In this document: piece after piece, positions 33,478-43,169 of the stretch
Position numbering within the stretch: position 1 is the stretch's first letter
Layout: each line of letters begins with the position of its first letter
NCBI GenBank assembly: GCA_024278765.1
Contig: JAJRSM010000103.1
Location: 1 to 43,169 of the forward strand
Length of the DNA: 43,169 nt
From: Deltaproteobacteria bacterium
GTDB lineage: Bacteria > Desulfobacterota > GWC2-55-46 > DRQE01
Direction: 5' to 3'
The notes under the pieces: generated by a model
Told to the model about the DNA's origin: nothing
What the model saw: only the letters and a program-made list of their open reading frames with translations
The model's database searches: none
Program-made: the position numbers and the translations under genes

Positions 33478-33690
33478 ATGGAAAAAAAACGGACTATGAC
33501 TTTAAATCTAAGCAAGGTTGAAATGGAAGTCTTAGAGGCACTTTGTCATAAAAAAGGTTTAAGTAAAACAGCTCTTATTAGGCAGGCCTTAAGACTATAT
33601 CAGTCTGTTGATGTTCGTTTAGAAAAGGGTGAAAAATTGTTTATTGAGGATCCTATTAAAAAGGAAAAGTTGGAGCTTGTAGTTATATGA
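33478..33690 (+). CDS. Ribbon-helix-helix (CopG/Arc-type) regulator, putative antitoxin-like
   Basis: A 70-residue protein. MTLNLSKVEMEVLEALCHKK followed by GLSKTALIRQALRLY is a typical ribbon-helix-helix fold: a beta strand and two helices, with the GLSKTALIR turn. The C-terminal 25 residues (EKGEKLFIEDPIKKEKLELV) may be a partner-binding tail. It is the first gene of a tight operon under a promoter with twin palindromes, so it probably represses it. The SD is GAGGAGG. The stop overlaps the next start by 4 bp (ATGA). The small size and position resemble toxin-antitoxin regulators. Confidence 0.85.
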   Translation: MEKKRTMTLNLSKVEMEVLEALCHKKGLSKTALIRQALRLYQSVDVRLEKGEKLFIEDPIKKEKLELVVI

Positions 33691-34316
33691 GTGAGCTAGT
33701 TGGCAAATGTCTTCTTAAGGGTGTTCCACCTGATGATATTGTTGATGCTTTCTTATATGAGGGTATTGAAGAAAGACACCTTGAAGACCTTGAACAGCAC
33801 TGGAAGCCCGTATTTCTGGAAAAGTCTGAAGAAAAGAAATCTAATCCTAGTTTAATAAGTTCCCTTCATCTCGAAGACTTACAGTGGCATTGGCCAAGTA
33901 AGATCTCGGATATTGACGGTCAGCTCTCATATAGGACATTTAGCATAGAGTGTGGAAGCATAACTCAAGGCCTAATGATAATTAACATTTCTTCAAAGCG
34001 ATGTCGTATCGAAGAACAGCGAAATCAGCATCTAGCCTATATAGAGTACTTAGCTACAGCTCCATGGAATCGTAAACCATTAATGGCTCCAGAGCCAGCA
34101 AGATATAGGGGGGTTGGTAAAAATATGATAGCAACCGCAATTCAAGTAAGTCATGAAGAAGGATTTAATGGGAGAATCGGACTTCATGCCCTTCCTCAAG
34201 CTGAAAATTATTATGGGGGTTATTCTGGCATGGCTGACTTAGGTATAGATGGAGACTGTCAAAACCTACGGTATTTCGAAATGACTCCTGAATTGGCAAA
34301 AGACTTTTTAGGGTGA
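33687..34316 (+). CDS. GNAT-fold acetyltransferase-like protein with duplicated N-terminal motif
   Basis: A 209-residue protein. The C-terminal half is GNAT-like. IEYLATAPWNR (119-129) is strand 4. YRGVGKNMIATAI (140-152) is the acetyl-CoA R/QxxGxG loop. GRIGLHALPQAENYY with GYSGMADLG forms the rest. The N-terminal 75 residues are not typical GNAT and carry the same nonapeptide-like motif twice: HLEDLEQHW (31-39) and HLEDLQWHW (61-69). GNAT enzymes paired with RHH proteins include tRNA-acetylating toxins (the TacT type). This one is larger and its substrate is unknown. It overlaps the RHH gene by 4 bp. Confidence 0.7.
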   Translation: MSELVGKCLLKGVPPDDIVDAFLYEGIEERHLEDLEQHWKPVFLEKSEEKKSNPSLISSLHLEDLQWHWPSKISDIDGQLSYRTFSIECGSITQGLMIINISSKRCRIEEQRNQHLAYIEYLATAPWNRKPLMAPEPARYRGVGKNMIATAIQVSHEEGFNGRIGLHALPQAENYYGGYSGMADLGIDGDCQNLRYFEMTPELAKDFLG

Positions 34317-34326
34317 GGTGAAAGAT

Positions 34327-35310
34327 ATGAAATTTCAATTAAGTGAAAAGCAATTACTCAATTTAATAGATACAGAAGAAGACCTTGAGGTCTGTGCAGG
34401 TCGTCCTTTACCTCAAGAAATGCTTTTCGAAGCGTTAGACGAGAAGGCACTTGACGATGCGTGTAATAACTTTCCTGTACTTGAAATGATAAAACGCGGA
34501 TGGATAAAGGCATTAGATGATAGTAGAAATTTGGCAGAACTTGTCCGAGAATTTCTTGAACCATTGGTGCGCCGTCAATCATCACGTGTCTTGTGCCGTC
34601 GCACATTCCATCAACGTTCTGCTGATAGGATGGATAAGTTTGCGCTTCTAGCCTGGACAGCTAAAATTCTTATTGAAGCAGAAAAAGAAAATTTACCTGC
34701 GTATACCCCTGGAATAATAGACAGCAACTTTTTAGCTTATTTAGTTAAATTAAGTACTGACTCAGAAGGGCCTATACTTGCAAGAAAATTTCTTGCCGAC
34801 AATGGTATTCATTTGGTTATATTACCCCACTTACCAAAAATCAAACTGGATGGTGCTTCTATGTTGGATGAAAATAGACAGCCAGTTGTTGGATTAACCC
34901 TGAGGTACGATCGTATAGATTACTTTTGGTTCACATTAATGCATGAGCTTGCTCATGTAGCTTTACATTTAGAGGGCTCTAATGACCCTAATGAAGTGTT
35001 TGTTGATGACCTTGATGGTCTTATTGGCAACGCTGGACTGAACACTAAAGAAGTAGAGGCTGATATGTTTGCTAGAAATGCATTAATTCCTATCTCTGAT
35101 TGGCGGCCTAGTCGCGTAAAGCGACAAAAAACGCCAGAAGCAATCATTGACTTTGCAGAAAAAATGAAAATTCATCCTGCTATTGTTGCCGGAAGAATTC
35201 GATATGAGAGCGGAAATTACAGTATACTTAATGATTTAGTTGGTATTGAAGAAGTGCGAAAGCTTTTTCAAGATATTGACTGGCAAACTAAGGAGAGCCG
35301 CGATGTTTGA
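34327..35310 (+). CDS. ImmA/IrrE-type zinc metallopeptidase
   Basis: About 327 residues. The zinc site is HELAH (206-210, within FTLMHELAHVALHLEG). The third ligand is expected in KEVEADMFARNALIP. ImmA/IrrE peptidases cleave repressors or antitoxins to switch on mobile elements or stress genes. Many relatives carry an N-terminal XRE helix-turn-helix. Here the N-terminal 170 residues are helical but I see no HTH, so DNA binding could be supplied by the RHH protein (inference). ATG 34327 follows GAGGTG. GTG 34318 is an alternative. The end overlaps the next gene by 8 bp. Confidence 0.85.
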   Translation: MKFQLSEKQLLNLIDTEEDLEVCAGRPLPQEMLFEALDEKALDDACNNFPVLEMIKRGWIKALDDSRNLAELVREFLEPLVRRQSSRVLCRRTFHQRSADRMDKFALLAWTAKILIEAEKENLPAYTPGIIDSNFLAYLVKLSTDSEGPILARKFLADNGIHLVILPHLPKIKLDGASMLDENRQPVVGLTLRYDRIDYFWFTLMHELAHVALHLEGSNDPNEVFVDDLDGLIGNAGLNTKEVEADMFARNALIPISDWRPSRVKRQKTPEAIIDFAEKMKIHPAIVAGRIRYESGNYSILNDLVGIEEVRKLFQDIDWQTKESRDV

Positions 35311-36394
35311 TTCACTACACTATGTGCCTATTCTTAAGGGCAAGCAGGGAGAGTTTGGGGCATTAAAAGAATTGAGTATGTCAGTAAGGCTACATGTTAC
35401 TCCCTTAATCGAGATACCTCCTGTTGGCTGGAACTATAAGGATAGTTGTCCAAATAAAACTATAGATGATCATATAGAATCTTTTCCGGATAAAATTTGT
35501 AATTCTTGGGGCACGGACAAGCCAGTTTTCGTAGATCTTTATTTTGTTGAGCCTGGAGATCGCACGGCAGATGGGCAACACCCTCTAAATGTACTAATGC
35601 TATCTGTTCATGCTAAGGGCATAAAGGCGATTCCTGTCACAAGCCTTGACCGCTCCCCTGACTTTCAGAAGGCTGTTAGTGATATTGTTAAGGCGCAGGG
35701 GCAAGGAGTATGCTTGAGACTTTCCAGAGAAGAGCTTGACAACTTTGTATCAGATGAAAGTACGGTTACTAAACTGTTAAGTGATCTTGGCCTTTCGTAC
35801 AGGGAGTGTGATTTGATCCTTGATTTACAAGATATATCCTCTTTAGACATTGGTGACGTGGTCGCATCTTGTTGTAAAGCTATCCAAACTCTTCCAAATG
35901 TGAAAGAGTGGCGAACCCTAACACTTGCAGGGTGTAGTTTTCCTTCGAGCTTGGCAGTTATACCTGCTAACAGCTCTAAAATTTTAATTCGTAAAGAGTA
36001 TATACTATGGCAGAGATTAGTTGCTATAGCTCAAGAGTTACCTAGAGTGCCTTCATTTGGTGATTATGGTGTTTCTCATTCCGACTTTCCAGATATTGAT
36101 CCTAGAAAAATGAAAATGAGTGTGAATCTCAGATATACAAGCGATAATTCATGGTTAGTTCTGAAAGCCCGCGGAGCCAACAGCTATGGCTACACTCAGT
36201 TCAATGGTCTTTGCCGAGTTATTGTCTCTAAGGATGAATACTTGGGGAGGGATTTCAGTTGGGGAGATAAATATATTTATGACTGTTCTTGCAGAAATGA
36301 TCGTCCGGGCAATGCGTCAACCTGGCGGCAGGTAGGTACTAGCCATCACATTGCATTTGTGTCGAAGCAGATCGCCAATTATCCCTTGCTTTAA
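35303..36394 (+). CDS. Beta-family (PF14350-type) protein
   Basis: A 363-residue soluble protein of unknown function. The opening YVPILKGKQGEFGALKEL and VTPLIEIPPV is the signature of the Beta protein family, found in phages, islands and defence neighbourhoods. A second part with RRYTS-like strands (MSVNLRYTSDNSWLVLKARG) and a Cys/Trp-rich end (YDCSCRNDRPGNASTWRQ) follows. ATG 35303 has AAGGAGAG 6 nt upstream and overlaps the ImmA gene by 8 bp. The longer frame to 35240 is not supported. Its 3' end overlaps the convergent sce7726-type gene by 56 bp. Family members are commonly found next to sce7726 proteins. Confidence 0.78.
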   Translation: MFDSLHYVPILKGKQGEFGALKELSMSVRLHVTPLIEIPPVGWNYKDSCPNKTIDDHIESFPDKICNSWGTDKPVFVDLYFVEPGDRTADGQHPLNVLMLSVHAKGIKAIPVTSLDRSPDFQKAVSDIVKAQGQGVCLRLSREELDNFVSDESTVTKLLSDLGLSYRECDLILDLQDISSLDIGDVVASCCKAIQTLPNVKEWRTLTLAGCSFPSSLAVIPANSSKILIRKEYILWQRLVAIAQELPRVPSFGDYGVSHSDFPDIDPRKMKMSVNLRYTSDNSWLVLKARGANSYGYTQFNGLCRVIVSKDEYLGRDFSWGDKYIYDCSCRNDRPGNASTWRQVGTSHHIAFVSKQIANYPLL

Positions 36395-36929
36395 GTTTAT
36401 CTCTTACAGTTGTTTGTAAATCTTTAAGTGTAAGCTTAGTTGACAGCCTCTCCCATAATATCGAACGAGGCTTACTTCTAAAGCCCTTGTCGAAATCGTA
36501 TTCTTCTAAGGTCTCAAGAGCTTCGTCACGCCAAAGAAGCTGAGCAACGGCCAATGGGTCAATATCTGTGTTCTTACCGCAAGGGCGAATATCATTAAGT
36601 TGAATTCCACCTTCGACTCTTTTTGCCTCACAAACGCCCCACCAGTCAGGAATTTGCTTTAAACTTTTTTCTAGATGACTTGTACTAACAACTAAAGTAA
36701 CATGGTCAAAAATTTTATTATAAGATTCTATTTGACTTGATAGTCTTCCTAGAGTGTCACGAGCACTTTTTATCTCATATCCATGTAGATAGCTGTTAAT
36801 AACGGCGACATCTATTCGGGCATCGCCTTGACATAATCCTAATTCCTCAACAATTAATGATTGAGAAGGTTTATCGCAATCTTCGGTAATCAAATCTAAC
36901 AAAATTTTTCTAATATCTATATCTCTCAT
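36339..36929 (-). CDS. sce7726-family protein, PD-(D/E)xK nuclease-like
   Basis: A 196-residue protein. RDIDIRKILLDLI, EELGLCQGDARIDVAVIN, LHGYEIKSARDTLGRL and PDWWGVCEA are the blocks of the sce7726 family. Asp40, Glu52-x-Lys54 (YEIK) and Gln66 have the order and spacing of a PD-(D/E)xK nuclease core, with Glu29 in the preceding helix. A DNA- or RNA-cleaving role is inferred from this motif. It is transcribed convergently to the Beta-family gene and overlaps its last 56 bp. The SD is GGGGTGGA. The AT-rich 287 bp upstream, to 37216, holds its promoter and that of the next gene. Confidence 0.8.
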   Translation of the reverse strand: MRDIDIRKILLDLITEDCDKPSQSLIVEELGLCQGDARIDVAVINSYLHGYEIKSARDTLGRLSSQIESYNKIFDHVTLVVSTSHLEKSLKQIPDWWGVCEAKRVEGGIQLNDIRPCGKNTDIDPLAVAQLLWRDEALETLEEYDFDKGFRSKPRSILWERLSTKLTLKDLQTTVRDKLKARDNWRSASTQMQCDG

Positions 36930-40245: not shown

Positions 40246-41013
40246 CTACTTCCTGTTCACGATTGCGGTCTCAACGTCCTTAATTGCACTGTAACGGGTT
40301 TGGAACATCGCCTTGTCCGTATTGACGTAGGCATTTCGCGGATCGTCGTGTTCCGTGATGCTCAGCTTTGCGTAAAGATCCCTCAGAGTCTGAGCTTCAG
40401 CAGGAATAAGCGGAACTACTTTAGTAAAATCGTTGAAGGCCGATACCTGCTGGCTTTTCTGTTTAAACTGGTGCCGTTGGTTGTTGAATACGTGGGTATT
40501 TACTACTGCCTCTATTAGTCGGCGCATCTTCGCGGCCATAATTTCTTTCTGTGGCTTGGTCGGTTCGCCCACAATGTCAAGGGTCGCGTCGATATCAGTC
40601 TTCAAATCATCAACTTTCTCACTGTATTCATCGATTGCGACACAGCTCTCCAGAACATGCACAGCCATATGATTGCTCAATTGTGAGATATTCAGAGTTG
40701 TCTGAATTTGAACGAAAAACTCCCAATTGTGCGTGAGGACAATGATCTGTCGATTGGGGTACGCCTGAATCAAATCACGTAGCCGATTGCAGTAGTTGCC
40801 GATGTAGTTGTAGTCGAAACTAGAGACCGGATCGTCAAAGACTATTACCAGTTGTTCGCAGGTATCAAGCTCTGCAAAGAACAGAGCAAGGGCATGGATG
40901 CGTTGCTCCCCCTCACTCAGAACCAGCTCAATTTTATGGCCTGCCACGTGATGATTGACAGTAACAGCTCCATCGCCCCCGACATCCTTCAACTCGACGC
41001 CGAATGCACTCAT
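40246..41013 (-). CDS. AAA ATPase (SMC/RloC-like), C-terminal part after an in-frame TAG
   Basis: 255 residues from the first ATG after the stop at 41047-41049. It carries the ABC-type signature LSEGEQ (32-37), Walker B VIVFDDP (56-62) and the switch His in VLTHN (95). It is thus the second half of an ATPase whose Walker A lies in the upstream frame. The final 100 residues contain RRLIE and EHDDPRN, reminiscent of the Arg/Glu/His residues of PrrC/RloC anticodon nucleases. That assignment is weak. The two frames are the same phase, so the whole gene (40246-42777) is one 843-residue frame with a single TAG. AAAAGG lies just before this ATG, so re-initiation is conceivable. Confidence 0.75.
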   Translation of the reverse strand: MSAFGVELKDVGGDGAVTVNHHVAGHKIELVLSEGEQRIHALALFFAELDTCEQLVIVFDDPVSSFDYNYIGNYCNRLRDLIQAYPNRQIIVLTHNWEFFVQIQTTLNISQLSNHMAVHVLESCVAIDEYSEKVDDLKTDIDATLDIVGEPTKPQKEIMAAKMRRLIEAVVNTHVFNNQRHQFKQKSQQVSAFNDFTKVVPLIPAEAQTLRDLYAKLSITEHDDPRNAYVNTDKAMFQTRYSAIKDVETAIVNRK

Positions 41014-41046
41014 ATCCTTTTCAGCGAGCGCAATATATTCAGCATC

Positions 41047-42777
41047 CTATCGGGTTCTAAAATTCTCCACCACAAGCTCCTTGTGGGCCTTCTTTGCTGT
41101 AGAAGTAACCTTGCGGAGCACTGGCGTAAAATTCGGCAAGCTAGAATCCCAAAAGGCTGAGTCTCTCATGCGCCCGTAGGCATCCTTTAGCAATTCAATG
41201 TTTTTCGAAATTGCCTTTGAGTAAAGCAGACCTTGGCATTCCGTTGTAATATCAGTCAACAGTTTGATAAGCTCTACACGGCTCTTTCCTGCTTCTTCGA
41301 CTAGCTTTTCCTTCTCCTTCAAGGACTTTGAAAGATCATCGCTGAGGCCTCGCATCAACGAAGCCGCATCTTTGCAATCTTGGTCGATTTCGCCACCCAC
41401 CACAAACCGCGTCTGAACTGCTCTTCCAGTATCCTTGGTCGCATAAACTGTCTCTTGAGTTAAAACAGAATCTTTCGCCCAATCGTCGGGTGCTGAATCG
41501 GCGATCACTTTGAGGTTTTTCTCAGACGTTTTGAGAAGATTCCGGATTTCAGTGATGATCGCGTCCAGCTCTCCGGTTAGTAGAGCGGCGTATTGCTTGA
41601 AGAGTTCAAGTTCGCTTTCCCGAAGCTTTTGCTTGCAGAGGGGACAATCTCTGGTCTCTGGGTAATTAAAGCTACAAATCTTGTTCGCTGGACGGATAAG
41701 CGCCATCAATTTGTCGAGGGTTGCACCCGATGGGATGAGTGACTTAGCGAGAACTTCGAGCTCGTCTTCTTTGGACTTCAAGGTTCTAGCCTGCGCAACC
41801 GGGTCAATCTCAATGAGCTTTTCGCATGCAATGAGAATGGGTTCAATTTCCCCGTGCAGTGCTTTCAGGGCAGCAGCTTCGCCCTTGAGGAGTTTGAGCC
41901 CTTCTTCTGATGTTGCCTTCTCGAGTTCGGCCTTCCTTTTCAGTTTTTCATCCAAGACACTCTTATCAGTATAACTATCTCCCAGCTTAATCTCAACCTT
42001 TAGCGCCGCCGCAGCTGTACTTGTCAAAGCGGCGAGCACGGTGTCTTCGAAAGTTTCGAATTTGTTCCGGATTTGCTCTAAAACGTTCGTGAGCAGAGTC
42101 GCATTCTCGGTCTGCCTCCTTTGAAGCTCGGTGCGTAAGTCTATGCAGTGATCTTTTGCGGTCTCGAATACATCCAATTTGAACGGAGAAAGCTCGATGA
42201 TTCGACCCGGCTGGACAGAATTATGAATGTTGTTAATGGCAATCCCAGCATCGAAATACTTGAGGACGGTTGAGTGTGACCCGTATGCGGCCGATAATGT
42301 CCATAACTGAGATGTGCTATCCGATGTGAATCTAAATGAGAAAGAAGGCGTTGTGGTCGTCGGGGCATGAACATCATGGAGCGGGCGTCGTGGAGCATCA
42401 TGGGATGCCAGAATCTGTAATGCTTCGCACAGGCTGGATTTTCCGCTTCCATTGGCTCCGAAAATGATAGTTGCTCGTTTCGGGAGCGACACCGCTAACG
42501 CATTGCTTAGCCCTTTGAATCCGTTGAAGGGTCCTATGGTTTCCAGACGTTCGACGGCTGGTGCCGCCGCTCCGGCGACAGCAGCGGCAGTTGGAGGTGC
42601 CGGCTGCCGAAGGTAGCTAGCGCGTGCTAAGAAAAGCTGAACGATAATCTCCAGATTTGTGGGGCTGAGCGTCGTTTGTCCAGATGAGGCAAGATCGCAG
42701 ATCATCTCTAACCAAGGAATGTCCTCGGAGTGTCCTAGGTCTCTAATGTAGCCGATTGCATCTGGATGGATTGGCAT
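41047..42777 (-). CDS. AAA ATPase (SMC/RloC-like), N-terminal part ending at an in-frame TAG
   Basis: 576 residues. An N-terminal helical and Ala/Pro-rich region precedes Walker A GANGSGKS (107-114). A long coiled coil follows with a zinc-hook-like CPLC (378-381), and a second coil ends at TAG 41047. The plan (split ATPase head, long coil with CxxC hook) is that of Rad50/RloC-type proteins, several of which are phage-defence ATPases. Alone it lacks the signature and Walker B. AAAGGA precedes the ATG. Base and codon use is visibly more GC-rich than the neighbouring AT-rich island genes, which suggests separate acquisition. Confidence 0.8.
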   Translation of the reverse strand: MPIHPDAIGYIRDLGHSEDIPWLEMICDLASSGQTTLSPTNLEIIVQLFLARASYLRQPAPPTAAAVAGAAAPAVERLETIGPFNGFKGLSNALAVSLPKRATIIFGANGSGKSSLCEALQILASHDAPRRPLHDVHAPTTTTPSFSFRFTSDSTSQLWTLSAAYGSHSTVLKYFDAGIAINNIHNSVQPGRIIELSPFKLDVFETAKDHCIDLRTELQRRQTENATLLTNVLEQIRNKFETFEDTVLAALTSTAAAALKVEIKLGDSYTDKSVLDEKLKRKAELEKATSEEGLKLLKGEAAALKALHGEIEPILIACEKLIEIDPVAQARTLKSKEDELEVLAKSLIPSGATLDKLMALIRPANKICSFNYPETRDCPLCKQKLRESELELFKQYAALLTGELDAIITEIRNLLKTSEKNLKVIADSAPDDWAKDSVLTQETVYATKDTGRAVQTRFVVGGEIDQDCKDAASLMRGLSDDLSKSLKEKEKLVEEAGKSRVELIKLLTDITTECQGLLYSKAISKNIELLKDAYGRMRDSAFWDSSLPNFTPVLRKVTSTAKKAHKELVVENFRTR

Positions 42778-43031: not shown

Positions 43032-43169
43032 TGGACTTCCCTCAGTTTAGTAGACAACTACCCTTTACCTGATGAAGCCATTTCAAAGTCATGCGGGCTC
43101 AGCTGACCGAGGTAGCTGTGACGCCGGGTTTTGTTGTAAAAGACCTCGATGTAATCAAAGAGGTCAGCC
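43032..43169 (-). mobile_element. Second IS3-family insertion sequence, right end only
   Basis: The terminal inverted repeat is at 43032-43056 (inward TGGACTTCCCTC... ending GTAGACA), followed by the 3' end of an OrfB on the minus strand up to the window edge. It differs from the element at 1-133 in both protein and terminal sequence, so the two are related but not copies. The body lies beyond the window. Confidence 0.8.
43058..43168 (-). CDS. IS3-family transposase OrfB, C-terminal fragment (partial)
   Basis: 36 codons open at the window edge. [20 protein letters not shown] is the conserved C-terminal part of the IS3-type integrase domain, followed by LSPHDFEMASSGKG and TAG (43058-43060). 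The stop lies inside one base step of the terminal repeat region, as in intact IS3 elements. The remaining transposase, including the DDE residues, is outside the window. Confidence 0.85.
   Translation of the reverse strand, partial: ADLFDYIEVFYNKTRRHSYLGQLSPHDFEMASSGKG

Follow-up and report, generated by a model that had tools for sequence, protein, structure and literature searches.

An RloC-like ABC-HEPN nuclease gene with a single in-frame TAG: a probable recent nonsense mutation

An interrupted gene at the end of a contig

The window, the whole 43,169-nucleotide stretch of DNA analysed here, is the entire contig C1 of a fragmented genome assembly (2.23 Mb in 123 contigs). Read on the minus strand from 42777 to 40246, it contains an 843-codon frame whose terminal codon is TAG and which holds one internal stop, likewise a TAG (translated as X), at codon 577. 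Under translation table 11, the same frame appears as two ORFs in one phase, 42777-41047 and 41013-40246. The gene and its features, all on the minus strand, are as follows.

40246..42777, minus strand: RloC-like ABC-HEPN gene (PDC-S06) of 843 sense-equivalent codons, with a stop at codon 577
41047..42777, minus strand: N-terminal ORF of 576 aa, with the N-terminal region, Walker A, coiled coil and zinc hook
42433..42459, minus strand: Walker A, GANGSGKSS, residues 107-115
41635..41646, minus strand: zinc hook, CPLC, residues 378-381
41047..41049, minus strand: in-frame TAG, codon 577; the homologue column has Leu in 15/16 and Phe in 1/16
40246..41013, minus strand: ORF of 255 aa from ATG589, with the signature, Walker B and nuclease triad, made only if translation re-initiates
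40906..40920, minus strand: ABC signature, LSEGE, residues 620-624
40819..40842, minus strand: Walker B, VFDDPVSS, residues 646-653
40510..40524, minus strand: RRLIE, residues 752-756, holding R752-x3-E756 of the nuclease triad
40348..40350, minus strand: H810 of the nuclease triad

An earlier note, made from the letters of the DNA, had described a single in-frame TAG at 41047-41049 that leaves the phase unchanged, with Walker A on its 5' side and the signature and Walker B on its 3' side; our re-reading of the frame, the matches of both halves to PDC-S06 models and the motif positions listed above all agree with that description. The flanking sequence it gave, FRTR-stop-DAEYIALAEKD, stands as well (we read ENFRTR-stop-DAEYIALAEKDM around codon 577), but its orientation needed correcting, the gene being on the minus strand, and the downstream in-frame ATG589 lies 12 codons past the stop rather than 14.

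The interrupted frame is a real gene and not a chance arrangement: its N- and C-terminal halves each match the same PDC-S06 models among the PADLOC HMMs, in register, 16 homologues span the site, and conservation of the frame extends to either side of it. The gene is present once in the assembly, so the base at codon 577 has no cross-check within it.

Identity of the encoded protein

The PADLOC model PDLC04892, for the candidate single-gene phage defence PDC-S06, matches the read-through frame at E = 1.4e-50 over residues 6-778 of 844, nearly the whole length; the window copy differs in being interrupted, and PDC-S06 is itself a predicted system. Pfam matches are to AAA_13 and SMC_N. Published descriptions define the RloC family by ABC motifs, a CXXC zinc hook set in a coiled coil, a C-terminal Arg-x3-Glu-x36-52-His motif and lengths of 658-897 aa (PMC2610378), with a nuclease domain that is a member of the HEPN superfamily (PMC3710099). 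Compared by these descriptions with RloC of Geobacillus kaustophilus and Acinetobacter baylyi, the 843-residue window protein falls within the length range and shares the Rad50-like ABC head, the coiled coil, the CXXC zinc hook and, spacing apart, the C-terminal R-x3-E...H triad. CPLC is kept in every homologue that covers the region and is flanked by long helices in the predicted model. R752, E756 and H810 are invariant across 17 near sequences, and E756 and H810 are kept in 30/30 aligned sequences, including relatives at ~20% identity. The H-loop histidine, H683, lies within LTHNW (681-685), past the stop. When modelled separately (pLDDT 77.5), the C-terminal half matches the C-lobes of Rad50 and SMC proteins (1f2t_B, 1xex_B), while the full-length model (pLDDT 69, pTM 0.43) is too weak for a whole-chain fold comparison.

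Several features set the window protein apart from RloC. E756 and H810 are spaced by 53, which exceeds the published range of 36-52 by one; a region of ~80 residues precedes the Walker A lobe; relatives of the gene lie mostly in type I restriction-modification (R-M) loci, where RloC is rarely found; and RloC is a single uninterrupted polypeptide, as the homologues are, whereas this copy carries the stop. The additional N-terminal region (residues 1-80, window 42538-42777) has the sequence HPDAIGYIRDL..., is conserved in the subfamily and is predicted to form helices at 7-17, 21-31 and 39-49. PrrC shares the ABC motifs and the R-x3-E...H triad, together with a position after hsdS that most homologues of the window gene also occupy; it differs in lacking the coiled coil and zinc hook (PMC2610378), an insert that the window protein has, and in its weaker HMM match (1.2e-06). 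Lamassu LmuB and other SMC-like defence ATPases resemble the protein in ABC head and coiled coil (LmuB HMM, 3.7e-13). LmuB acts together with a separate nuclease subunit, whereas the triad of the window protein sits in the same chain.

These sequence features make the intact protein an RloC-like ABC-HEPN nuclease, in which a predicted Rad50-like ATPase is joined to a domain that probably cuts tRNA; its anticodon-nuclease function we infer by analogy with RloC. The original product would have been a single-chain RloC-like anti-phage protein whose HEPN-type nuclease, bearing the RloC/PrrC triad, lay C-terminal to a Rad50/SMC-type ABC ATPase head split by the zinc-hook coiled coil. By the same analogy, DNA breaks would be sensed by the ATPase, which would then free the nuclease to cut tRNA anticodon loops and thereby halt translation.

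Origin and age of the stop at codon 577

We compared the site across 16 homologues, drawn from a collection of prokaryote genomes and 41-80% identical to the window protein. An internal stop is absent from all 16, and the column of codon 577 holds Leu (TTG, CTG, CTC or CTA) in 15 of them and Phe in one; the two nearest, L029 (79.5%) and L030 (73%), carry TTG, one base from TAG. A plasmid-borne homologue beyond this set (L096) is likewise intact, with Leu CTT at the site. A natural split of the family at this point, which the earlier note had named among the findings that would count against its view of an interrupted gene, was not seen in any of the 16. The nearest relatives belong, by their record titles, to other phyla, and the host's own order offers no close relative (best match, 25% identity), a pattern that suggests horizontal acquisition of the gene.

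Two lines of evidence bear on the age of the stop: i) dN/dS for the pair formed by the window gene and L029 is 0.28 before the stop and 0.16 after it, values that point to purifying selection on both sides of the stop over this pair, and ii) when changes are polarised with L030 as outgroup, amino-acid and synonymous changes after the stop number 22/22 in the window gene and 20/19 in L029. An old pseudogene was rejected on the constraint on both sides and these near-equal post-stop changes. The frame carries no frameshift or further lesion, and the nuclease triad is intact. On these counts, neutral evolution is unlikely to have occupied more than about 10-44% of the branch, the range being set by the assumed dN/dS; selection thus acted over most of the branch, and the stop is either a recent change or a base error. 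Before the stop, the counts are 42/18 in the window gene and 38/34 in L029 (Fisher p = 0.05), and 7/12 residues at 571-582 differ between the two, a density matched in just two further stretches of the gene; D572N in the window gene affects a position that every other full-length homologue conserves. We regard the small pre-stop excess and the cluster at 571-582 as weak signals.

A sequencing or assembly error at one base, leaving the real gene intact, would account for one changed base where the rest of the gene is intact and undecayed, and the assembly is fragmented, with the gene in single copy. Substitution errors are nevertheless rare in assembled contigs, and the core genes of the window showed no further broken gene; we consider such an error unlikely.

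Constraint after the stop is explained by a very recent event, but it is also compatible with retained function, for which two routes come into question. In one, translation would end at codon 577 and re-initiate at ATG589, giving separate chains for the N- and C-lobes, which would pair in the manner of the Rad50 lobes in crystal structures. The earlier note had offered this option, and its elements exist: ATG589 is in frame and preceded by AAAAGG, the downstream part is under purifying selection, and the Rad50 and SMC C-lobes that match the post-stop part were solved as separate chains. The AAAAGG, however, ends 2 nt before the ATG, a poor spacing for re-initiation, and lies within the codons that specify the family's conserved E-K-D-M; none of the 16 homologues is split, and the stop interrupts a predicted helix (550-585). 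Two subunits are accordingly a remote prospect.

In the other route, low-level read-through of UAG would yield rare full-length protein and so limit a dangerous nuclease. The constrained downstream part fits this reading, as does the toxic, self-limiting behaviour of wild-type RloC in E. coli (PMC2610378). Against it stand the decoding machinery of the genome and the finding that no relative has a stop at codon 577. A genome-wide search, which the earlier note had proposed, found neither a suppressor tRNA nor a PylS match above the cut-off: no CTA anticodon occurs among the 40 tRNA matches of the genome (39 named by ARAGORN), the weak tRNA-like match that ARAGORN did not call (L082:124-195, G000:C93:18623-18694; 37.6 bits) has the loop UUCGCAC and anticodon CGC, and PylS scores 28 bits against a cut-off of 178 bits. 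PylS matches were also given by 13 of 14 control genomes, with just one exceeding the cut-off. RF1 is present (526 bits), and TAG ends 13 of the 34 window genes, in line with the earlier judgement that TAG is not generally reassigned. General reassignment, a suppressor tRNA and pyrrolysine decoding were rejected on these grounds, and dedicated UAG decoding is unsupported because CTA tRNA is lacking, PylS falls below the cut-off, RF1 is present and so many genes end in TAG. We also recognised no read-through signal in the codons adjoining the TAG, which is followed by G. Read-through is the least probable of the readings weighed here, re-initiation hardly more probable; even taken together, as a functional stop that would keep the nuclease low where the R-M partner is missing, they are very improbable.

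That an RloC-like gene recently acquired a nonsense mutation, the first of the options in the earlier note, is the best reading (probability roughly 0.8), in keeping with Leu or Phe at the site in all 16 homologues, TTG in the two nearest and no decay elsewhere in the frame. The stop at codon 577 would stem from a single substitution that turned a Leu codon, probably TTG, into TAG. From the sequence, translation now ends past the Walker A lobe and coiled coil, and the signature, Walker B and nuclease would no longer be made; most likely, then, the mutation abolishes the nuclease.

Restriction-modification linkage, insertion sequences and neighbouring genes

The homologue adjoins hsdS, with hsdM and/or hsdR nearby, in 10 of the 16 cases (L031, L032, L034-L037, L039, L040, L042 and L043), hsdR lying directly upstream in L043; some of these neighbours were identified by Pfam and others assigned through BLAST clustering with those. 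Type I R-M linkage is known for prrC. Mapped on the tree, linkage requires about five changes and is not clustered. The homologues in L029 and L030 are not next to R-M genes, yet HsdR is encoded elsewhere in both genomes. The window gene differs from its linked homologues, and from prrC, in having no such linkage, and its genome has no match to HSDR_N and only a weak 23-bit match to N6_Mtase. That loss of a partner might render the gene harmful is a hypothesis. In Acinetobacter, RloC was not silenced by the R-M system (PMC3874168), and partner loss therefore need not have this effect.

The contig ends in an insertion sequence (43032-43169) whose edge at 43032 lies 255 bases upstream of the start codon. 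The genome holds 26 near-identical copies, this one included, many of them at contig ends, a sign of a recent expansion that broke the assembly. Gene loss is commonplace during insertion-sequence expansion. No direct repeat of at least 16 bases was found between the tRNA genes and the contig end, and relatives of the gene were not found in viral contigs and phages.

The window thus probably holds a recent loss-of-function allele, an RloC-like nuclease gene caught soon after inactivation in a genome that has no detectable type I R-M partner and shows an insertion-sequence expansion. Inactivation here is an ordinary event, and the protein type is already known. The more useful side result, and one worth following, is the subfamily itself: PDC-S06 members with RloC features that adjoin hsdS in 10/16 homologues suggest an R-M-linked branch of RloC.

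Other defence-related genes were seen nearby and in a relative. In Chlorobium ferrooxidans (L030:7736-11916), the homologue is followed by HamA (Hachiman) and a DEAD-box helicase. Two overlapping genes at 34318-36394 of the window match the B (7e-90) and C (4e-69) components of the anti-phage system PD-Lambda-2 in PADLOC, with no match to component A among the genes searched, and a sce7726-family gene (36339-36929, minus strand; 1.3e-51) is convergent with the C gene and overlaps it. At 33479-34316, a short ORF that by eye looks ribbon-helix-helix-like runs, through an ATGA overlap, into the start of a 209-aa ORF; the latter has no Pfam match and resembles, again by eye, a GNAT acetyltransferase, and the two are possibly a toxin-antitoxin pair.
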